Assembly (NCBI RefSeq): GCF_017355525.1
Contig: NZ_CP067395.1
Location: forward strand, 3,565,001 to 3,629,000
Source: Lysobacter enzymogenes
GTDB lineage: Bacteria > Pseudomonadota > Gammaproteobacteria > Xanthomonadales > Xanthomonadaceae
Direction: 5' to 3'
Length of the DNA: 64,000 nucleotides
A program made the translations under genes and the position numbers. Positions 33,061-42,060 of this stretch are shown here, piece after piece; position 1 is the stretch's first letter, and every line of letters starts with the position of its first letter. Below the pieces are notes generated by a model, which worked only from the letters and a program-made list of their open reading frames with translations, ran no database searches and was not told the origin of the DNA.

Positions 33061-34158
33061 TCAACCGACGTCGCTGCGGCCGCCGTCGCGGCCGCGATCG
33101 AGCAAGTCCTGAGCCTGCCGCGCCAGTTCGCGGGTCAGCGCGAACGCGTCCAGCGCATGCGCGCGCCGCGCCTGGCCCGACCACAGCGACATGAAGCCGT
33201 CGTCGCCGGCGGCCTCGGCGTTCGCCCGCAGCGGCGCCAGCGCGGCGCCGGCGCCGGGGAAGGCCGGCGCCAGCGGCGACAGCGGCCCGAGTTCGCGCAT
33301 GACCCGGTTGACCACGCCACGCGCGGGCCGGCCGCTGAACAGGTTGGTCAGCGCGGTGTCGTCGCCGTCGCCGGCGTGCAGCGCGCGCCGGTGCAGCGGC
33401 GAGATCGTCGCTTCCGGGCAGAACAGATACGCGGTGCCGACCTGCACCGCCGCCGCGCCGAGCGCGAACGCCGCGGCGATGCCGCGGCCGTCGAAGATGC
33501 CGCCGGCGGCGATCACCGGCACGCCGACCGCATCGGCCACGCGCGGCAGCAGCGCGAACAGGCCGGCTTGCGCGCTGACGTCTTCGCCGTCGAGGAACAC
33601 GCCGCGGTGGCCGCCGGCTTCGTTGCCTTGCACGACGATCGCGTCGCAGCCGCGCCGTTGCAGCCACACCGCCTCGGCGACGGTGGTGGCCGAGGCGATC
33701 GCGCGCGCGCCGCTGGCGCGCACGCGTTCGAGCAAGGCCGGCTCGGGCAGGCCGAAGTGGAAGCTCGCGACCTGCGGCCGCAGTTCTTCGACCAGCGCGC
33801 ACCACGCCTCGTCGAACGGCGCGCGCGCGGCCGCGGCGACGGCGGCGTCGGGATCCAGGCCGAATTCGAGGTAGTACGGGCGCAGCCGCTGGCGCCACGC
33901 GGCGTCGCGCGCCGGGTCCGGCGCGGCGGCGCGATGGCAGAAGAAATTGAGGTTCACCGGCGCGTCGACCGCGGCGCGGAACTGCGCGACCTGTTCGCGC
34001 GCCTGCGCCGGCGACAGCATCGCGCACGGCAGCGAGCCCAGCGCGCCGGCGCGCGCGGCGGCGATCGCCAGCTCGGCGTTCTGCGCGCCGGCCATCGGCG
34101 CCTGCACGATCGGCAAGGCGATGCCGAACAAGTCCTGGATACGGCGGTCTGGCCACAT
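33061..34158 (-). CDS. Nitronate monooxygenase-like FMN enzyme
   Basis: 365-residue TIM-barrel flavoprotein of the 2-nitropropane dioxygenase/NMO family. Motifs: IVQAPMAGAQNAELAIAAARAGALGSLPCAMLSP at the N-terminus, VNLNFFCHRAAAP, VVQGNEAGGHRG (phosphate-binding loop), VPVIAAGGIFDGRGIAAAFALGAAAVQVGTAYLFCPEA, and RPARGVVNRVMRELG. The start is the ATG at 34158; an upstream ATG at 34191 would add 11 residues. It lies 86 nt downstream of the SagB-like gene on the same strand, so the two may form an operon and it may tailor the peptide; it could equally be a detoxification enzyme. Confidence 0.88.
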   Translation of the reverse strand: MWPDRRIQDLFGIALPIVQAPMAGAQNAELAIAAARAGALGSLPCAMLSPAQAREQVAQFRAAVDAPVNLNFFCHRAAAPDPARDAAWRQRLRPYYLEFGLDPDAAVAAAARAPFDEAWCALVEELRPQVASFHFGLPEPALLERVRASGARAIASATTVAEAVWLQRRGCDAIVVQGNEAGGHRGVFLDGEDVSAQAGLFALLPRVADAVGVPVIAAGGIFDGRGIAAAFALGAAAVQVGTAYLFCPEATISPLHRRALHAGDGDDTALTNLFSGRPARGVVNRVMRELGPLSPLAPAFPGAGAALAPLRANAEAAGDDGFMSLWSGQARRAHALDAFALTRELARQAQDLLDRGRDGGRSDVG

Positions 34159-34244
34159 GCGTGCGCGCTCCGTGGAGGATGCGCGCAGCATGCCACCGGC
34201 CGCGCGCGCCGTGTTGGCGCGCTGTGGCGAACGTGCGCGCGCGC

Positions 34245-35414
34245 TCAGTCCCGCGGCCAGACCGCGCCGGCCGGATCGAACTCGGAGGTGCCCATGCGTT
34301 CGCCGCGCCAGCCGAAGCCGCAGACCGCGAGCGGGCCTTCGGCCAGCGGGTCCAGGCCGAAGCCGCGCTCGATGTCGACTTCGTTGATCGCCGAGGTCAC
34401 GAACGCGCCGAGCCCGAGCTCGGTCGCGCTCAGATACAGCGTCTGCGACAGATGCCCGCTGTCGAGCAGCAGCGCGCGATACGCCTTGGCGTGGCGGCGG
34501 TACTTCCAGAAGCTGCGCGCATAGCGCGGCGCCAGCACCGCCAGCGCGTGCGCGTCGGCGAACCAATGCTGGCCGGCGACCGCCTGCGCGGCGAACTCGG
34601 CCAGCGGCGCGGCCGGCGCCGGCATCGGCTCCAGTGCGTGCTCGACCGGGTGGTAGTGGTACAGCCCGGGCGCCACGCCGTCGACGTTCTGCACGATCAG
34701 ATACGCCTCGGTCGCGTGCAGGCCGCCGCCGGACGGCGTGTGCTTCTTCAGGAACACGGTGTCGTCGCTGATCCGCACCTGCGCCTGCGCGGCGAACACG
34801 CGCCGTAGCATGCGCGCGAAGCGCTCGTACGGCAGCGCGCGCGCGGCGTCGAAGTTGCGGCAGGTGGCGCGGCGCGCCAGCAGCCGCTCGAACTCGCCGT
34901 CGTCCAGCCGCGGCAGCGGCAGGCGCGCGGCGGCCGGCGCGCGCTCGACTACGTGCGGCGGCGGCGCGCCGAGGCGGCGGCGGATCTCGGCCGCGGTGGT
35001 CAGTTCGTTCTCGTCCATCGCCGCGGCGCTGTCCGTGCCCTGCCAGCGCGCCATGCGGTGGGCCAGCGCGGCCGGCGGCCACCAGTGCGCGGCGCGCACC
35101 GCCTCGTCGCGCTCGCGGTGGGCGGCGCGGGCTTCGTCGTCGCCGATCAGCAGGCCGGCCTGCAGCAAGGCCTCGCAGGCCTGCGGGGCCAGCGCGCGCA
35201 CGTCCTCGGCCGGCAGCCACGCGTGCGCGCCGACCGCGCCGAGCAGCTCGCGCTCGTCGGCGCCGATCTCCACCTCCGCCTCCAGGTGCGGCGCCAGCGC
35301 CAGCCATTGGCGCTGGCTGTGCAGGCCGTTGCCGCCGCTGAGCAGCGAGTTCAGGTCGAACGACAGGGTTTCGCGCGGTTCGATGAATACGATGGAGCAG
35401 CGGCGGATGCGCAT
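34245..35414 (-). CDS. SagB-like peptide maturation dehydrogenase
   Basis: 389-residue FMN-dependent oxidoreductase of the SagB/ThcOx nitroreductase type. The C-terminal half has RRATCRNFDAARALPYERFARML (FMN site), HTPSGGGLHATEAYLIVQNVDGVAPGLYHYHPVEHALEPM, LDSGHLSQTLYLSATELGLGAFVTSAINEVDIERGFGLDP and GFGWRGERMG. The N-terminal ~140 residues (MRIRRCSIVFIEPRETLSFDL...) are family-specific and may bind the leader peptide. From memory, relatives are annotated as putative peptide maturation dehydrogenase beside NHLP-type peptides in Xanthomonadaceae. SagB enzymes oxidise azolines to azoles, but no YcaO cyclodehydratase is nearby. It is divergent from the precursor gene. Confidence 0.88.
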   Translation of the reverse strand: MRIRRCSIVFIEPRETLSFDLNSLLSGGNGLHSQRQWLALAPHLEAEVEIGADERELLGAVGAHAWLPAEDVRALAPQACEALLQAGLLIGDDEARAAHRERDEAVRAAHWWPPAALAHRMARWQGTDSAAAMDENELTTAAEIRRRLGAPPPHVVERAPAAARLPLPRLDDGEFERLLARRATCRNFDAARALPYERFARMLRRVFAAQAQVRISDDTVFLKKHTPSGGGLHATEAYLIVQNVDGVAPGLYHYHPVEHALEPMPAPAAPLAEFAAQAVAGQHWFADAHALAVLAPRYARSFWKYRRHAKAYRALLLDSGHLSQTLYLSATELGLGAFVTSAINEVDIERGFGLDPLAEGPLAVCGFGWRGERMGTSEFDPAGAVWPRD

Positions 35415-35501
35415 GGCGGCGGGCGGGTCTCGGCGACGGCGGGCTCGGCGGCGGTGCACGAACCGCGGCCTGCGCGTGCCGGACAGCACGGCGGCCGCGG
35501 C

Positions 35502-35507
35502 TAGAAT
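35502..35507 (+). promoter_or_regulatory. Possible -10 box for the precursor transcript
   Basis: TAGAAT followed by AGGCG in the 284-nt divergent gap; no matching -35 is evident. A GGGGGAACTGGGGAAC stretch before the precursor ATG gives a purine-rich ribosome site. Confidence 0.3.
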
Positions 35508-35698
35508 AGGCGATGGACGCCGCACCGGCTCGCACACGCCGCGCGGCGGCCCGGCGCCGGGCGCCGACCCGACTTTGCTGAACGACGCATTTGACCTGTC
35601 GCTGCGGGTTGTCGCGTTGTCCCTGCTTGACCGGGGCGGCCGTACGGCGCCGCTTTACGCCCGAATCGGGCAATCACGGGGGAACTGGGGAACTACCT

Positions 35699-36016
35699 AT
35701 GGCTACGAAAAAACCTGGCGGCGGACACACGCCTTTGGATCCGAAAGTCGCCGACAAGCTGCTGGAGTTGTTGAGCACCGATAACGAATTCCGCGCGAAC
35801 TTCGAGAAAGACCCGAAGGCCGCGGTGCAGTCGCTCGGCCACGACGTGCCCGAGGGCGTGCAGCTGCTGTGCATGAACACGACCCAGATGGCGAGCAAGG
35901 AAGAGATCGCCCAGGCGCGCGAGGCGATCAAGGAGTTCCTGACCTCGGCGGCCGCTTACAGCAATCCTCACTGCTTCGAGGCCGGCAACCTCGGCCCGGC
36001 GCTCGACGACAAGTAA
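35699..36016 (+). CDS. NHLP-type RiPP precursor peptide
   Basis: 105-residue peptide. Residues ~14-60 have the nitrile-hydratase-alpha leader pattern: DPKVADKLLELLSTDNEF, then FEKDPKAAVQSLGHDVPEGV. A helical KEEIAQAREAIKEFL follows and the probable core is the last ~23 residues, containing YSNPHCFEAGNLGP. There are two cysteines, 58 (leader) and 92 (core). No Gly-Gly cleavage site is evident before the core, unlike many NHLP peptides. From memory, close relatives are named NHLP-related RiPP or putative modified peptide. The SagB-like gene is divergent upstream. The 3' end overlaps the cyclase-like gene antisense by 49 nt. Confidence 0.88.
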   Translation: MATKKPGGGHTPLDPKVADKLLELLSTDNEFRANFEKDPKAAVQSLGHDVPEGVQLLCMNTTQMASKEEIAQAREAIKEFLTSAAAYSNPHCFEAGNLGPALDDK

Positions 36017-38589
36017 GCCGGCGGCGCATTGGCGGCCCAGGCGGCGGAGTACGCCTGGGCTTCCTTGTCCGCTTCGGCCGTACGGCCCAAGGCCTTGAGC
36101 GCCTGCGCGGCGCGCAGCCGCGCGATCCGGGTGTCGGCCACGTTCAGCGATTGCAGCGACTGGCCGCCGGCCAGTTCGATGTACGCCAGGCCGCGGTGCG
36201 CGGCCAGCCAGCGCGCTTGCTCGAGCGCCTTTTCGTTGTCGCCGGCGGCCTCGAAGGCCTGCATCAGCGCGGCCCGGGTCTGGAACAGTTCGTGCCCGTT
36301 GAGCAGGCCGGCCAAGCGCCGCACCGCTGCCTCGGGCTTGCCGTCCAGCCGCTCCTGCCCGGCCAGCACCACTTCGCGCAGTTCCGCCAGCTTCGGCGTC
36401 GCCCACAGCTTCGGTTGGTCCTTGAGCGCGTCGAGCACGCTGGTCGCCAGGCTGGCATCGTCCTGGCGCTGGGCCAGGTAAGCGCTGGCCAGGGCCAGGA
36501 ACACGTAGTCGCTCTCGTCGAAACCGGCGCCCTTGGACGCGGCCAGGGCGTTGCGCGCGCTCGCGCCGAGCAGTTCGCGCGCCCGCGCGCGTTCGCCGTT
36601 GAGCATGGCCACGCTGGCCTCGGTCACCGCCAGCACGTGCTTGAGCAGGTCGTTGCCTTCCACCGGCAGCTTGGCCGCGGCCTCGATATGGCGCTGGGCC
36701 TCTTTCCAGCGGCCCTGGTCGAGCAGCAGCGAGGTCTTGTCGAGATCGCGCACCGCGGCATAACCCTTGCGCGCGGCGCCGCCGCCGTCGAGCCGGCGCG
36801 CGGCGTCGTCGAGCGCGCCCTGCGCGGCGGAGACGTTGGCGCGGCGGCGCGCCGCATCGGCGATGTCGAGCTTGAGCGCCTGGTCGAACGCGGCGCGCGC
36901 GGCGCCGTAGTTCTCCTGGCCCAGCTCGGTGCGGCCGACATAGTCGTAGCCGTGGCCGCGCAGCGGGTTCTGCGGCACGGTGGCGCGCTGGGCGTAGGTG
37001 CGGGCCTCGGCGAAGCGGCTCTCCTGCATCAGCTGGAACGCGTAGTTGGCGGCGCCGGCGAAGTAGTCCGGATACAGGTCGGCCAGCAGCTTCCACTTGC
37101 CGACCGCCTCGCGGCCGCCGGCGAACTCGGCCGACCATGCGTCCAGGTACAGCGCGTCGCGCGGCGGCAGCCGGTCGCGGTGTTCCAGCGCCTGGGCCAG
37201 GAACGGTTTGGCGTGGGTGGCGTCGATCCGCGAGACCGCGGTGCGCACGCTGCCGAGGTAGGCCAGGGCGAAGGTCGGGTCGAGGGTGGTGGCGCGCTGG
37301 TAGAAGTCGGCCGCCTCCTCCATGCGCCCGCGGCCGAACGCCTTCTGGCCCAGGGCGTAGGCGCGCAACGCGTCGAGATTGGAGGTGGCGACCTTCGGCA
37401 GCGGCTCGGAATCGCGCTCGATCGACTTCATCGCCTCGCCGAGCTTTTCGCGCAGCGCCGCGGTGACGGTGTCGATCGAGTTCAGCGTGGACTCTTTGCC
37501 GGCGCCGTCGGCGGACTCGGCGTAGACCGTGGTCTGGGTATGCGGATCGATGACTTCGGCGCTGACCCGCACCCGCCCGCCGACTTCGGCCACGGTCGGC
37601 AGGATCACCGCGCGCGCGCCGTCGCGCAGGGCGATTTCCGAGGCGATGGCGCGGTCGAGCACGGTGTCGTTCTTGCGCTGCATGCGCTCGAGCGCGTCGC
37701 GCGCCTTGAGGTCGCTGAGCACGTTGACGTAGCGCGACTGCTCCAGGCTGATGCGGAAGGCCTGTTCCAGCGAATCGTCGAGCACGCTCTGGCCGGTGAG
37801 GTTGCGCAGGTCGCCGATCACCACCCAGTCGCGCTGGCCGAACGCGATCGCCGGCTGCGGCCGGGTCGCGAACCAGATGCCGCCGCCGACCGCCGCCAGC
37901 AGCGCGACCTCGGCGACCAGCGCCGCCGGGCGCCGCCACAGCGGAATGTCGCGCCAGGCCTTGGGCCCGTTCGGCGGCGCGCGCAGCGGGGCGATCCCGG
38001 GCTCGCCGACTTCGTAGATTTCCTGCGGCTCGGGCACGCCCTTGAAGCGCCAGCGCCCGTGCGACTTCCACAGCAGCTGCTGGCCGCGTTCGCCGAGTTC
38101 GCGCGCGGCGCGGTGCGCCAGCGGCTCGGCCACCGCCGACAGCAGGATCTGGCCCGGCCGCGCGGTCGCCATCAGCCGGCCGGCCATCGGCTTGGCCAGG
38201 CCTTCGACTTCGACCGGCTTGGCGCCGACCTTGACCGCCTCGTCGCTGTTGCGCCAGGTCAGCACTTCGCCGACGTGCAGGCCGGCGCGGGCCTTGAGTT
38301 CGAACTTGCGCGCCGCGCCGATCTCGCGCAGGCCGCGGGCGTAGTCCAGGGCGAAACCGAGGCCGTCGATGGGCCGCTCGAACAGCAGCAGCAAGCCGTC
38401 GGAGCGGTCGATCAAACGCCCGCGCCAGCGTTGCTGCAACGACAGCACCAGCCGGTCGTGTTCGCGGAACAGCTCCGCCGCGGGGCCGTCGCCGATGCGT
38501 TCGACCAGGGTGGTCGAATCGCACAGGTCGGTCAGCAGCAGGGTACGCAGCTGCGGGCCGTCGGCGTCGGGGCGGTGGGCGTCGTTCAT
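35968..38589 (-). CDS. Peptide modification system cyclase-like protein (class III cyclase domain, TM, TPR)
   Basis: 873-residue membrane protein. Residues ~14-185 form a class III nucleotidyl cyclase-like domain: LLLTDLCDSTTLVERIG with metal Asp21, then RSDGLLLLFERP with Asp64, and ARAGLHVGEV. The usual V-N-x-A-A-R-L motif reads A-K-P-M-A-G-R-L, keeping Arg but losing Asn, so activity is doubtful. A membrane segment (PAALVAEVALLAAVGGGIWFA) follows, then a TolB/CadC-like domain and many TPR-like helices to the end. From memory relatives are called putative peptide modification system cyclase. It lies 23 nt downstream of the cNMP-GGDEF gene, same strand, and runs into the precursor 3' end. Confidence 0.85.
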   Translation of the reverse strand: MNDAHRPDADGPQLRTLLLTDLCDSTTLVERIGDGPAAELFREHDRLVLSLQQRWRGRLIDRSDGLLLLFERPIDGLGFALDYARGLREIGAARKFELKARAGLHVGEVLTWRNSDEAVKVGAKPVEVEGLAKPMAGRLMATARPGQILLSAVAEPLAHRAARELGERGQQLLWKSHGRWRFKGVPEPQEIYEVGEPGIAPLRAPPNGPKAWRDIPLWRRPAALVAEVALLAAVGGGIWFATRPQPAIAFGQRDWVVIGDLRNLTGQSVLDDSLEQAFRISLEQSRYVNVLSDLKARDALERMQRKNDTVLDRAIASEIALRDGARAVILPTVAEVGGRVRVSAEVIDPHTQTTVYAESADGAGKESTLNSIDTVTAALREKLGEAMKSIERDSEPLPKVATSNLDALRAYALGQKAFGRGRMEEAADFYQRATTLDPTFALAYLGSVRTAVSRIDATHAKPFLAQALEHRDRLPPRDALYLDAWSAEFAGGREAVGKWKLLADLYPDYFAGAANYAFQLMQESRFAEARTYAQRATVPQNPLRGHGYDYVGRTELGQENYGAARAAFDQALKLDIADAARRRANVSAAQGALDDAARRLDGGGAARKGYAAVRDLDKTSLLLDQGRWKEAQRHIEAAAKLPVEGNDLLKHVLAVTEASVAMLNGERARARELLGASARNALAASKGAGFDESDYVFLALASAYLAQRQDDASLATSVLDALKDQPKLWATPKLAELREVVLAGQERLDGKPEAAVRRLAGLLNGHELFQTRAALMQAFEAAGDNEKALEQARWLAAHRGLAYIELAGGQSLQSLNVADTRIARLRAAQALKALGRTAEADKEAQAYSAAWAANAPPAYLSSSAGPRLPASKQ

Positions 38590-38612
38590 CGCGGCATCCT
38601 TGTCCACGCCGA

Positions 38613-39662
38613 TCAAACGGCGCTCAGTTCGGCGTCCTGCCAATGCACCCGGTTGCCGCCCAGGCGCTTGGCCTGGTAAAGCGCGGCATCGGCTTGCGCG
38701 TACCAGTCGTTCCAGTCGCGCTTGGCGCTGACCAGGCAGGCGCCGACGCTGACCGGGCAGATCGTCGGCGGCGATTGCGGGATCAGCAGCAGCCCGTGCA
38801 CGGTATGGACGATGAAGTCGGCGAAGCGCATGACGTCCTGGCGGGTGTGCGCGGCGACCAGCAGGCAGAACTCGTCGCCGCCGAGGCGGCAGGCGATGTC
38901 CTCGGTGCCGGCCACCGAACGCAGGATGTTAGCCACGCTCTGCAGCACGCGGTCGCCGGCCAGATGGCCGTGTTCGTCGTTGACCTGCTTGAAGCGGTCG
39001 CAGTCCACCAGCACCAGCCCGATCGTGTCGGCCATGCCGGCCGCGCGCACTTCCTGCAGGTGCAGGGTCAGGCCGCGGCGGTTGTACAGGCCGGTGAGGT
39101 CGTCGGTGCGCACCAGCTCCTCGGTCTGGTTGAGCTGGTGGGTGGTCGCGTAGAGGCTGTCGAGCGCGGCTTCCAGGTCCTGATTGCGGCGGCGCAGGCG
39201 GCGGATCAGGCTTTGTTCGTTGAGCACCACGCGCATGATCGCGCGGCGCAGGAAGTAGGACACCAGCGAGGGATCGCGGTCGACCAGGCGCTGGAATTCC
39301 TCGTGGCGCAGTTCCACCAGCAGGCCGTCGGTGGCGGCGATGGCGTCGGCGCTGCGGGCGTGGTCGCCGATCAGCAGGCCGAGTTCGCCGAAGAATTCGC
39401 GCACGCCCAGGCGCTTGGTGACCAGGTCGTCGCCGAAGTCCAGGACGATCGCGCCGCGCGCGATCACGAACATGGTGGTGCCCAGCTCACCGCGGCGGAA
39501 CAGCACCTGCCCGGCCTCGACCCGGCGCGGGCGGCCGATCTCGGCGAACAGTTCGAATTCGCCCGGGGTCAGCACCGCCATCGCCACGTCCGTCGGCGCC
39601 GCGGTCGCTGCCGAATTGTCGGTTTCGCGGCCCACCGAAGGCGCCGCCGTGTCGCGATTCAT
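38613..39662 (-). CDS. Cyclic-nucleotide-binding domain plus GGDEF diguanylate cyclase
   Basis: 349 residues with a Crp-like cNMP-binding domain at ~35-150 (GQVLFRRGELGTTMFVIARGAIVL, FFGELGLLIGDHARSADAIA). A coiled connector follows, then a GGDEF domain at ~180-345 (RTDDLTGLYNRRGL, VDCDRFKQVNDEHGHLAGD, CRLGGDEF at 261-265). The intact GGDEF suggests c-di-GMP synthesis; no RxxD inhibitory site precedes it. No HTH, so it is not a Crp regulator. The ATG at 39662 has GGGGAG eight bases upstream. It heads a two-gene unit with the cyclase-like gene, which suggests cAMP or cGMP input to c-di-GMP output. Confidence 0.88.
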   Translation of the reverse strand: MNRDTAAPSVGRETDNSAATAAPTDVAMAVLTPGEFELFAEIGRPRRVEAGQVLFRRGELGTTMFVIARGAIVLDFGDDLVTKRLGVREFFGELGLLIGDHARSADAIAATDGLLVELRHEEFQRLVDRDPSLVSYFLRRAIMRVVLNEQSLIRRLRRRNQDLEAALDSLYATTHQLNQTEELVRTDDLTGLYNRRGLTLHLQEVRAAGMADTIGLVLVDCDRFKQVNDEHGHLAGDRVLQSVANILRSVAGTEDIACRLGGDEFCLLVAAHTRQDVMRFADFIVHTVHGLLLIPQSPPTICPVSVGACLVSAKRDWNDWYAQADAALYQAKRLGGNRVHWQDAELSAV

Positions 39663-39840
39663 CCCGATCTCCCCGAGCCCCACATCCCCTGTGAAGCTTT
39701 GACGGCAGGATAGCACCTGAGTCTGAGCAGCTAACGCCGCAAGGGGGCAGGAGCGGCCACCCCCCGCCGTCCCGATGCGCGCTGTTGCGTATACGGCCGC
39801 GAGTGTAGTCCCGCGGTCCGCTCCGGCGCGGGCGCGCCGC

Positions 39841-39900
39841 GTTGCAGGTGTGCAACAGATGCGCAGTACGACCGCGGTCGCGGTCGCGGTCGCGGCCGCG
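39841..39900. repeat. Hairpin and CGCGGT hexamer array in a divergent promoter region
   Basis: GTTGCA/TGCAAC hairpin at 39841-39856 with loop GGTG, then a run of CGCGGT units (39873-39900). They lie in the 322-nt gap between the cNMP-GGDEF gene and the S9 peptidase gene; no gene is seen there. Confidence 0.6.
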
Positions 39901-39984
39901 CCGGCATGGCCTTCGGCACTGCGCGGGCCGGGGCGGATGCTGTTCATACTCGACCCCGACCTGCCACGGAAACGGAGAACCGCC

Positions 39985-42060
39985 ATGCCCGCTCGTCCGC
40001 ACCGCCACCGCTTGTCGCCTGCCGGCCTCGCCCTCGCGCTCGCCGCCGCCACCGCCGCGCCGGCCTTCGCCGCCGGGTCGGCGCAGGTCGAGCTGATTCC
40101 GCGCTCGGCCCTGTTCGGCAATCCCGAGCGCAGCAGCGCCCAGCTCAGCCCCGACGGCCGTTACCTGAGCTGGCTGGCGCCGGTGAACGGCGTCATGAAC
40201 GTGTGGGTGGCGCCGGCGGACGATCCGGCCAAAGCGCGCGCGGTCACCGACGACGCCGCGCGCGGGATCCGTAGCTATGTCTGGAGCTATCGCGAAGGCA
40301 CCCTGCTGTACCTGCGCGACAGCGGCGGCGACGAGAACTTCCACCTGTATGCGGTCGACGTGGCCAAGCCGGGCCAGGCGCGCGACCTCACCGCCTATCC
40401 CAAGACCCGCGCCAGCCTGGTCCGCCTCGCCCATCGCCATCCCGACCGGATCCTGGTCGGCATGAACGACCGCGACCCGAAGTGGCACGACTTGTACGAA
40501 GTCGACCTGGCCAGCGGCGAACGCAAGCGCGTGCTGGAGAACAAGGACCGCCTGTCCGGCTATCTCGCCGACGGCGATCTGAAGGTCGGCCGCGCCACCC
40601 GCTCGCGCGAGGACGGCGGCGGCGAACTGCTGGCCGCCGACGGCAAGGGCGGCTGGACGGTGATCGACACGATTCCGTTCGAAGACAGCCAGACCACCAA
40701 GTACGAGGGCTACAGCGACGACGGCCGCACCTTGTATCTGACCGACTCGCGCGGCCGGAACACCGCCGCGCTGTACGCGGTCGACGCCGACGGCAAGAAA
40801 TCGCTGCTGCTCGAGGACGCCCGCGCCGATGTCGGCGCGCGCCTAAGCGATCCGCGCAGCGACCGGGTCCAGGCGGCATCGGTCTATTACCTGCGCCAGC
40901 AATGGAAACCGCTGGACCCGGCCGTCGGTCGCGACCTGACCTGGCTGCAGGGCAAGCTCGGCGCGGGCGAAGTCTCGGTCGCCTCGCGCAGCCTCGACGA
41001 CCGCGCCTGGGTGGTGTCCTACAGCGCCGCCGAGGAACCCGGCACGACCTATCTGTACAAGCGCGGCGGCAGCGGCGAGCCGAGCCTGACCCGCTTGTTC
41101 TCGACCCGCCCGGCGCTGGACGGCCAGCCGCTGGTGCCGATGTGGCCGGTCGAGATCGGCGCGCGCGACGGCAAGACCCTGGTCAGCTACCTCAGCCTGC
41201 CCAAGAGCGCCGACGCCAACGGCGACGGCAAGCCCGACCGCCCGGTGCCGCTGGTGCTGTTCGTCCACGGCGGCCCGTGGGCGCGCGACTACTACGGCTA
41301 CCACGCCTACGCGCAGTGGCTGGCCAACCGCGGTTACGCCTCGTTGCGGGTCAACTACCGCGGCTCCACCGGCTTCGGCAAGGACTTCATCAACGCCGGC
41401 GACGGCGAATGGGCCGGCAAGATGCACGACGACCTGATCGACGCGGTCGACTGGGCGGTCAAGCAAGGCGTGACCAAGAAGGAAGACGTCGCGATCATGG
41501 GCGGCAGCTACGGCGGCTACGCGACCCTGGTCGGCCTGACCTTCACCCCCGACGCGTTCAAGTGCGGCGTCGACATCGTCGGCCCGTCGAACCTGGAAAC
41601 CCTGCTCAAGACCATCCCGCCGTACTGGGCCAGCATCTTCGAGCAGTTCGCCCGGCGCATGGGCGACCCGCGCACCGAAGCCGGGCGCAAGCAACTGGCC
41701 GAACGCTCGCCGATCGGCCGGGTCGACAAGATCGACAAGCCGCTGCTGATCGGCCAGGGCGCCAACGACCCGCGGGTCAACCAGGCCGAGAGCGACCAGA
41801 TCGTCGAGGCGATGCGCAAGAAGAACATCCCGGTCACCTACGCGCTGTTCCCCGACGAAGGCCACGGCTTCGCCCGGCCGGAAAATTCGATGGCGTTCAA
41901 CGCGGTCGCCGAAGGCTTCCTGGCCCAGTGCCTGGGCGGCCGCGCACAGCCGATCGGCGAGGACTTCAAGGGCTCCAGCATCACCGTGCCGGCGGGCGCG
42001 GATGGGGTGAAGGGGCTGGAGGCGGCGTTGAAGACGCACAAGCAGGAAGTGAAGAAGTAA
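39985..42060 (+). CDS. Secreted S9 family prolyl oligopeptidase-type peptidase
   Basis: 691-residue serine peptidase with a signal peptide (MPARPHRHRLSPAGLALALAAATAAPAFAA). Residues ~40-400 form a WD/beta-propeller-like region (SPDGRYLSWLAPVNGV). The catalytic alpha/beta-hydrolase domain has VLFVHGGPWARDYYGY, the nucleophile MGGSYGGYA with Ser508, GANDPRV (Asp) and DEGHGF (His). The start ATG has CGGAGAA upstream. It is divergent from the cNMP-GGDEF gene. A leader-processing role for the RiPP-like locus is conceivable but unsupported; general peptide scavenging is the default. Confidence 0.92.
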   Translation: MPARPHRHRLSPAGLALALAAATAAPAFAAGSAQVELIPRSALFGNPERSSAQLSPDGRYLSWLAPVNGVMNVWVAPADDPAKARAVTDDAARGIRSYVWSYREGTLLYLRDSGGDENFHLYAVDVAKPGQARDLTAYPKTRASLVRLAHRHPDRILVGMNDRDPKWHDLYEVDLASGERKRVLENKDRLSGYLADGDLKVGRATRSREDGGGELLAADGKGGWTVIDTIPFEDSQTTKYEGYSDDGRTLYLTDSRGRNTAALYAVDADGKKSLLLEDARADVGARLSDPRSDRVQAASVYYLRQQWKPLDPAVGRDLTWLQGKLGAGEVSVASRSLDDRAWVVSYSAAEEPGTTYLYKRGGSGEPSLTRLFSTRPALDGQPLVPMWPVEIGARDGKTLVSYLSLPKSADANGDGKPDRPVPLVLFVHGGPWARDYYGYHAYAQWLANRGYASLRVNYRGSTGFGKDFINAGDGEWAGKMHDDLIDAVDWAVKQGVTKKEDVAIMGGSYGGYATLVGLTFTPDAFKCGVDIVGPSNLETLLKTIPPYWASIFEQFARRMGDPRTEAGRKQLAERSPIGRVDKIDKPLLIGQGANDPRVNQAESDQIVEAMRKKNIPVTYALFPDEGHGFARPENSMAFNAVAEGFLAQCLGGRAQPIGEDFKGSSITVPAGADGVKGLEAALKTHKQEVKK

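Follow-up and report, generated by a model that had tools for sequence, protein, structure and literature searches.

A peptide precursor, its SagB-like dehydrogenase and the putative sensor half of a guanylate cyclase behave as one exchangeable allele on a conserved cyclic-nucleotide relay in Lysobacteraceae

The window analyzed here is a stretch of 64,000 nucleotides from Lysobacter enzymogenes (RefSeq assembly GCF_017355525.1, contig NZ_CP067395.1, positions 3,565,001 to 3,629,000), in which positions 33,061 to 39,662 hold the genes of a putative ribosomally synthesized and post-translationally modified peptide (RiPP). The peptide precursor, a SagB-like dehydrogenase and the half of a neighboring guanylate cyclase that contains the membrane segment and the tetratricopeptide repeats (TPR half) behave as one exchangeable allele, which is a new result. 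The arrangement follows the pherotype pattern: the output domain is conserved, while the peptide, its putative modifying enzyme and the presumed ligand-facing half of the cyclase change together. Next to the cyclase lies a GGDEF protein with a cyclic nucleotide monophosphate (cNMP)-binding domain. We propose, with the balance evenly poised, that the four genes constitute pherotype-type signaling, in which the exchangeable peptide/enzyme/receptor allele sits on a fixed relay from cyclic GMP (cGMP) to cyclic di-GMP (c-di-GMP) and the oxidized peptide would be the ligand of the receptor guanylate cyclase.

Distances, pairs, trees and topologies were analyzed for 106 distinct loci, each with a single precursor and the full set of four genes, drawn from 181 loci (101 + 80, with genomes partly the same) after multi-precursor loci were dropped; locus pairs are not independent. 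Large-contrast pairs within a genus and selected Xanthomonas pairs serve as examples, and the counts come from a tally of 216 pairs. In the Xanthomonas loci L126 and L044, identity is 100% for the cNMP-GGDEF protein and for cyclase residues 12–210. In the flanks, 5,935 bases align at 98.8% identity and 4,486 at 96.7%. The approximately 3.5 kb with the TPR half, the precursor and the dehydrogenase yield no blastn match at E 1e-10. Within this block, protein identity is 16–43% in windows of the TPR half; the two precursors are 22% identical, and the two dehydrogenases, which lie in opposite orientations, 33%. Nucleotide identity falls from 98% at codons 201–220 to 75, 60 and 52% by codons 261–280. 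The break (codons 221–280) is located inside the cyclase gene, at its sole strong hydrophobic segment (approximately residues 222–243). The gap recurs in five more pairs, where the flanking DNA is 80–97% identical, and in two of them a short piece of the dehydrogenase still matches (307 and 136 bases, 67–71%). In the Lysobacter pairs with the window, the drop in identity begins later (approximately codons 380–440) and is deepest at codons 561–740. The mean net charge is +4.7 before the membrane segment and −1.3 after it, and the former exceeds the latter in 106 of 106 loci (positive-inside), which suggests that the exchanged half of the cyclase is periplasmic.

The tally covers the 216 locus pairs with cNMP-GGDEF proteins at least 85% identical. 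In 65 of these pairs the TPR half and the precursor are both similar, in 142 both are dissimilar, and 9 are mixed; with the dehydrogenase in place of the precursor, the numbers are 63, 137 and 16. Over all loci, distances of the TPR half follow those of the dehydrogenase catalytic domain (Spearman 0.76) and the precursor core (0.51). Distances of the cyclase domain follow the cNMP (0.71) and GGDEF (0.68) domains and hardly the precursor core (0.18). With the distances of the relay, the cyclase domain and the catalytic domain partialled out, the correlation of the core with the TPR half persists (partial 0.18, p 0.002, the lowest value that 499 permutations allow), and none is seen with the cyclase domain (partial −0.07, p 0.95).

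Trees were compared only by splits with a support of at least 0.9. Control comparisons within one part give conflicts in 1 of 49 splits for quarters of the TPR half, 3 of 47 for halves of the dehydrogenase and 2 of 43 for GGDEF versus cNMP. When the first TPR quarter is set against the cyclase domain that belongs to the same protein, conflicts number 38 of 56 splits. The TPR half shares 30 supported splits with the dehydrogenase and 8 with the cyclase domain. Eight type-D loci from six genera form an exclusive clade in the trees of both the TPR half and the dehydrogenase, while the smallest group that holds all eight comprises 83 of 106 leaves in the cNMP-GGDEF tree and 81 of 106 in the cyclase-domain tree. 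Since these loci had drawn attention by low dehydrogenase scores and by their C-termini, their dehydrogenase clade is expected, and what is informative is that they group in the TPR-half tree and are scattered in those of the relay.

The conserved unit consists of the cNMP-GGDEF, cyclase, precursor and dehydrogenase genes. Of 198 Lysobacteraceae genomes, on which the family counts are based, about 120 contain it. The precursor is found in 122 genomes and the cyclase, above its cut-off, in 121; the dehydrogenase is matched in 124, in 119 of them above cut-off. A lack of co-occurrence in other genomes, which the first-pass annotation of this stretch had named as a refutation, is not observed: the dehydrogenase is matched in every one of the 122 genomes with a precursor, and 119 of these also have a cyclase above cut-off, which is more than chance. 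The three exceptions are G011 and G120, with the cyclase in pieces, and G175 (locus L246, genus Xanthomonas), in which the dehydrogenase is broken and the cyclase absent. A dehydrogenase without a precursor occurs in G126 (a fragment at a contig end) and G130 (48 bits, below cut-off), and a cyclase above cut-off without a precursor in G054 and G126.

A survey of 101 loci, comprising the window and 100 stretches chosen from the profile matches rather than all of them, gives the precursor by profile in 99, a cyclase match in 98 and a cNMP domain above 60 bits in 89. The cNMP-GGDEF protein is a regular partner, a point that the first-pass annotation had missed. The usual order is the cNMP-GGDEF and cyclase genes in one direction, the precursor facing them, and the dehydrogenase, the orientation of which varies by allele type. 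Array-like versions also exist: nine precursor matches and multiple dehydrogenase copies, of which two are partial or score below cut-off, in approximately 16 kb of G022 (L034, L035); a further array at L036 (G067); five near-identical tandem precursor frames with one common core at their ends at L110 (5723–7794); and five precursors in Kribbella (L169).

Of 369 genomes sampled across the class, 5 have a dehydrogenase above cut-off, each with the same gene order, and another 71 match it weakly. Close relatives at 62–70% identity occur in five Streptomyces and one Kribbella in a scan of named genomes (best 80 of 303 relatives). All six actinomycete genomes contain one or more precursors and the dehydrogenase, and even a weak TIGR04510 match is absent from all six. 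An all-against-all comparison of the six loci finds no third gene in common, and Pfam finds nothing shared among ten chosen frames near the pairs, which indicates that precursor and dehydrogenase are the minimal unit. The relay is the partner of this pair in Xanthomonadales.

All five genes described by the first-pass annotation are confirmed (Table 1), as is its statement that the precursor, dehydrogenase and cyclase families belong to a putative modified-peptide system: TIGR04509, TIGR04511 and TIGR04510 lie side by side at 34245–38589, each above its curated NCBIfam cut-off. These families name a system without product or mechanism, to which the present analysis adds the cNMP-GGDEF protein, the allele exchange, the probable independence from YcaO, a predicted RiPP recognition element and the actinomycete pair. 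The Pfam matches at the locus are NMO, Nitroreductase, GGDEF and cNMP_binding. No LanM or radical SAM family appears among the Pfam and NCBIfam matches of the five locus proteins and three neighbors, to which that search was confined without a genome-wide one. The leader had been assigned to the nitrile hydratase leader peptide (NHLP) type, of which a weak similarity stands and membership does not. The precursor scores 25.9 bits against the canonical family TIGR03793, below the cut-off of 50.9, and resembles the nitrile hydratase alpha chain at E 0.025; judged from its sequence, it is a relative of the NHLP leader family and not a member. In contrast to NHLP or proteusin-type precursors, its locus holds no exporter or other maturation gene. 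At 64 of the 106 loci the frames of the cyclase and the precursor overlap tail to tail, by a median of 46 bases, which may produce antisense 3´ ends.

Table 1. Features of the cassette and its neighbor in window coordinates.
Feature	Position	Strand	Evidence or remark
NMO-like (nitronate monooxygenase-like) flavoprotein, 365 aa	33061..34158	-	PF03060 254.7 bits; neighbor judged outside the system
SagB-like flavin mononucleotide (FMN) dehydrogenase, 389 aa from the likely ATG	34245..35414	-	TIGR04511 577.3 bits (cut-off 240)
Dehydrogenase N-terminal domain, approximately residues 1–92	35139..35414	-	predicted RiPP recognition element
Precursor peptide, 105 aa	35699..36016	+	TIGR04509 99.7 bits (cut-off 34); within the exchangeable block
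Precursor C-terminal core, ending ..SNPHCFEAGNLGPALDDK			whole precursor has Cys58, Cys92, Tyr87; leader NHLP-related
Tail-to-tail overlap of cyclase and precursor frames, 49 bases	35968..36016	.	coordinates
Membrane guanylate cyclase/TPR protein, XC_0250 orthologue, 873 aa	35968..38589	-	TIGR04510 1150.5 bits (cut-off 400)
Exchangeable cyclase part: membrane segment (approximately residues 222–243) and predicted periplasmic TPR half	35968..37926	-
Fixed cyclase part: cytoplasmic class III cyclase domain, approximately residues 1–208	37965..38589	-	conserved between alleles
cNMP-binding GGDEF protein, XC_0249 orthologue, 349 aa	38613..39662	-	155.8 bits to PDB 5h5o

A gene for an S9 peptidase adjoins the cassette (39775–42060). 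Such a gene is found near 19 of 101 loci, on either side (e.g., L061, L126, L192), a count that has no chance control. In Xanthomonas it lies outside the exchanged block and marks the conserved flank, and a role as processing enzyme is not claimed.

The first-pass annotation had also overlooked that the cyclase and the cNMP-GGDEF protein correspond to a published relay of Xanthomonas campestris. According to An et al. (2013; PMC3770947), XC_0250 makes cGMP as a guanylate cyclase and has a TPR domain that the authors leave uncharacterized; its neighbor XC_0249 binds cGMP (0.293 µM) and then makes more c-di-GMP, and the known output is biofilm and gene regulation. The TPR domain of this type is still termed uncharacterized in the text of a 2019 review (PMC8042644). 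The two systems are alike in the adjacent genes for a cyclase with a TPR half and a cNMP-GGDEF protein and in their named residues; here the cassette also holds the precursor and the dehydrogenase, along with which the TPR half is exchanged. The words 'peptide', 'dehydrogenase' and 'operon' are absent from the main text of PMC3770947. No paper that joins the XC_0250 relay to a RiPP was found in the open PMC literature, which is not proof, as subscription journals lie outside it.

The XC_0250 residues D41, D71, L73, A150, L157 and A161 are found at identical numbering (6/6) in the Xanthomonas cassette cyclases L192, L201 and L196, and five of the six in the fourth, L194. Among 740 offsets tried on L192, only the true one gives more than four matches. 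The equivalents of the functional residues in the window cyclase were located by alignment. On this residue-level evidence the window cyclase is an orthologue of XC_0250, from which guanylate cyclase activity is predicted. Asp61 (99 of 100 sequences) occupies the position of the base-specifying Lys of relatives. D21 and D64 occur without exception in the 100 sequences. D21 of the window cyclase aligns with the TD Asp of solved class III cyclases, and the published metal residue D41 corresponds to D34 of the window cyclase (97 of 100); the published assignment may deserve a second look.

All 156 aligned cNMP domains have the cGMP contacts F73, E90, H98 and E146, and 142 of them have N145; GG[DE]EF is present in every match. 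The window protein retains all cGMP-contact residues (F, E, H, N-E) together with GGDEF. The PDB chain 5h5o, which matches seven of seven XC_0249 contact residues at one offset and is 97% identical to the cassette proteins of X. hortorum, is probably the XC_0249 domain; the code given in the paper itself is 4KG1.

The dehydrogenase matches PF00881 with 82.8 bits and TIGR03605 with 115.3 bits, above the cut-off of 78.4, and W303-K304-Y305 are invariant across 83 aligned sequences. The predicted structure (mean predicted local distance difference test score 95.4) has its best structural matches in McbC, BmdC and ThcOx, so that the model assigns the enzyme to the SagB type, with a nitroreductase fold and the conserved Lys-Tyr. 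The N-terminal domain is a predicted RiPP recognition element, for which a PqqD-like winged-helix fold would be expected; in the structural search no other family stands clearly above RiPP enzymes. Distances of the precursor leader track this domain (partial 0.30), while those of the core track the catalytic domain (partial 0.30) and hardly the N-terminal domain (0.06). Of 185 distinct precursors, 162 have a hydrophobic-acidic pair, [FLIMY][EDN], at the C-terminus, a frequency without shuffle control. By analogy with the cyclodipeptide oxidase AlbA, the reaction would be a YcaO-independent flavin dehydrogenation of a residue near this pair, the likeness to AlbA-like desaturation being an analogy only.

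A comparable design is described for ComQXPA of Bacillus (as set out in PMC4408185 and PMC4008528), in which the peptide, the modifying enzyme and the ligand-facing part of the receptor vary strongly and the cytoplasmic output is conserved. Because peptide, enzyme and receptor part co-vary over a conserved output in the same manner, we propose the modified peptide as the ligand of the cyclase, a role that here is a proposal only. The present system differs in that it is Gram-negative and employs a flavin dehydrogenase instead of an isoprenyl transferase and a guanylate cyclase receptor instead of a histidine kinase. In the proposed mechanism, the predicted recognition element of the dehydrogenase would bind the precursor leader, and the FMN domain would remove two hydrogens near the C-terminal hydrophobic-acidic pair without azoline formation. 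The mature peptide would reach the periplasm and, as the allele exchange suggests, bind specifically to the predicted periplasmic TPR half of the cyclase of its own allele. By orthology to the published biochemistry, the cyclase would then make cGMP, which would bind the cNMP domain of the GGDEF protein and raise c-di-GMP; in Xanthomonas this promotes biofilm.

Several observations weigh against this proposal. The isolated XC_0250 cyclase domain is active and restored biofilm in Xanthomonas, according to the main text of PMC3770947, which indicates that the sensor half is not essential for activity. The precursor leader tracks the TPR half more strongly (partial 0.30) than the core does (0.18), unlike the prediction of a pure core-ligand model. 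The linkage is imperfect, with 22 of 62 dehydrogenase splits in conflict with the TPR half, and the block is contiguous, so that linkage alone could carry the TPR half, the precursor and the dehydrogenase together. Neither half needs the other: genome G054 (L245) has the cyclase and the cNMP-GGDEF protein without precursor or dehydrogenase, and actinomycetes have the pair only. No exporter was found in a search for C39 domains, to which the transporter search was confined; 33 of 122 precursor genomes have no C39 domain at all. Of the 122 genomes with a precursor, 89 contain a C39 domain, as do 39 of the 76 remaining genomes, and a dedicated C39 exporter was rejected for want of a strict link. 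Finally, all 12 genomes that contain YcaO also carry the dehydrogenase.

Two other accounts of the same block are both unlikely. The peptide could be an antagonistic or kin-recognition effector, with the TPR half as the matched sensor or protection part; the relay would then regulate its production instead of receiving a signal, and the diversity of the block would reflect selection of toxin-protection type. A diversified effector fits the exchangeable blocks and the multi-precursor arrays (up to nine in G022, five in Kribbella L169), and actinomycetes retain the precursor/dehydrogenase pair without the cyclase. However, a guanylate cyclase protein is matched in 98 of 101 loci and its known output is biofilm and gene regulation, and no killing or immunity family is found among the Pfam and NCBIfam matches of the locus. 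Equally doubtful is a pair unrelated to sensing, such as an internal cofactor-like peptide, beside a TPR half that senses another variable ligand, the three being replaced jointly only through adjacency. Such hitchhiking accords with the contiguity of the exchanged stretch, the relay without the pair in G054 and the lack of an exporter in the C39 search, but it does not account well for the near-perfect co-occurrence over 198 genomes or for a core that, under the partial tests, tracks the TPR half and not the cyclase domain.

The chemistry has its own alternative, in which a distant YcaO makes azolines in trans and the dehydrogenase oxidizes them, as the azoline oxidases SagB, McbC, ThcOx and BmdC do. 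This is highly improbable. The first-pass annotation stated that the locus lacks YcaO, which is correct: the YcaO cyclodehydratase of thiazole/oxazole-modified RiPPs is absent there, but elsewhere the genome contains three YcaO genes (G000:C1 801066, 3005080 and 4536043), the nearest approximately 593 kb from the locus. The SagB-type fold with its Lys-Tyr motif, the YcaO genomes that all carry the dehydrogenase and the presence of YcaO in five of six actinomycete genomes, which counts against a YcaO-free chemistry, are in line with azoline oxidation. Yet YcaO exceeds its cut-off in only 12 of 198 genomes, and 112 of 124 dehydrogenase genomes lack it, which makes azole chemistry unlikely as a rule and upholds the earlier view of a RiPP-like precursor with its own SagB-like dehydrogenase, mostly without YcaO. 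G000 and G138 have both genes on a single contig, separated by hundreds of kb, and the other genomes have them on different contigs; a SagB-like frame other than this dehydrogenase, with a low score, is located approximately 3–9 kb from YcaO in G015, G062 and G176. Seven frames around two of the three YcaO matches of the window genome belong to no NCBIfam family. Separately, L248 (13127–18617, genome G062) contains a stretch that resembles a thiopeptide pyridine synthase (NF045556, 199.3 bits, below the cut-off of 325) near two YcaO genes, with the gene for an ABC transporter ATPase next to it; this may be a cluster of thiopeptide type in the genus of the window.

The original interpretation, a five-gene RiPP locus in which the dehydrogenase and the NMO-like flavoprotein oxidize the Cys92/Tyr87 region, can almost be dismissed: in the window the two flavoprotein genes lie side by side on one strand, but an NMO-like gene is found in only 6 of 101 loci, all six in the genus of the window, where it is a local add-on, and the last 25 residues of the 185 precursors contain Cys in 54 and Tyr in 39, which excludes these residues as a universal target. 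That interpretation as a whole is thus supported in part, and it had passed over the exchange of the cyclase sensor half along with the peptide genes.

Returning to the proposed peptide signaling, Lysobacter, Xanthomonas and their relatives likely speak private peptide dialects that would set cyclic-nucleotide levels. With moderate confidence we extend this to a Gram-negative pherotype system in which a ribosomal, flavin-oxidized peptide would gate a bacterial receptor guanylate cyclase, and the alleles of which would be shared across genera as private dialects of Xanthomonadales that control sessile behavior. If true, the input of the TPR half in the cGMP relay of Xanthomonas would be found and an unnamed RiPP-like family would gain a function, so that two orphan systems would explain each other, the relay obtaining its ligand. 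Bacteria would then possess a peptide-gated guanylate cyclase, together with a SagB-type dehydrogenase that operates without YcaO.

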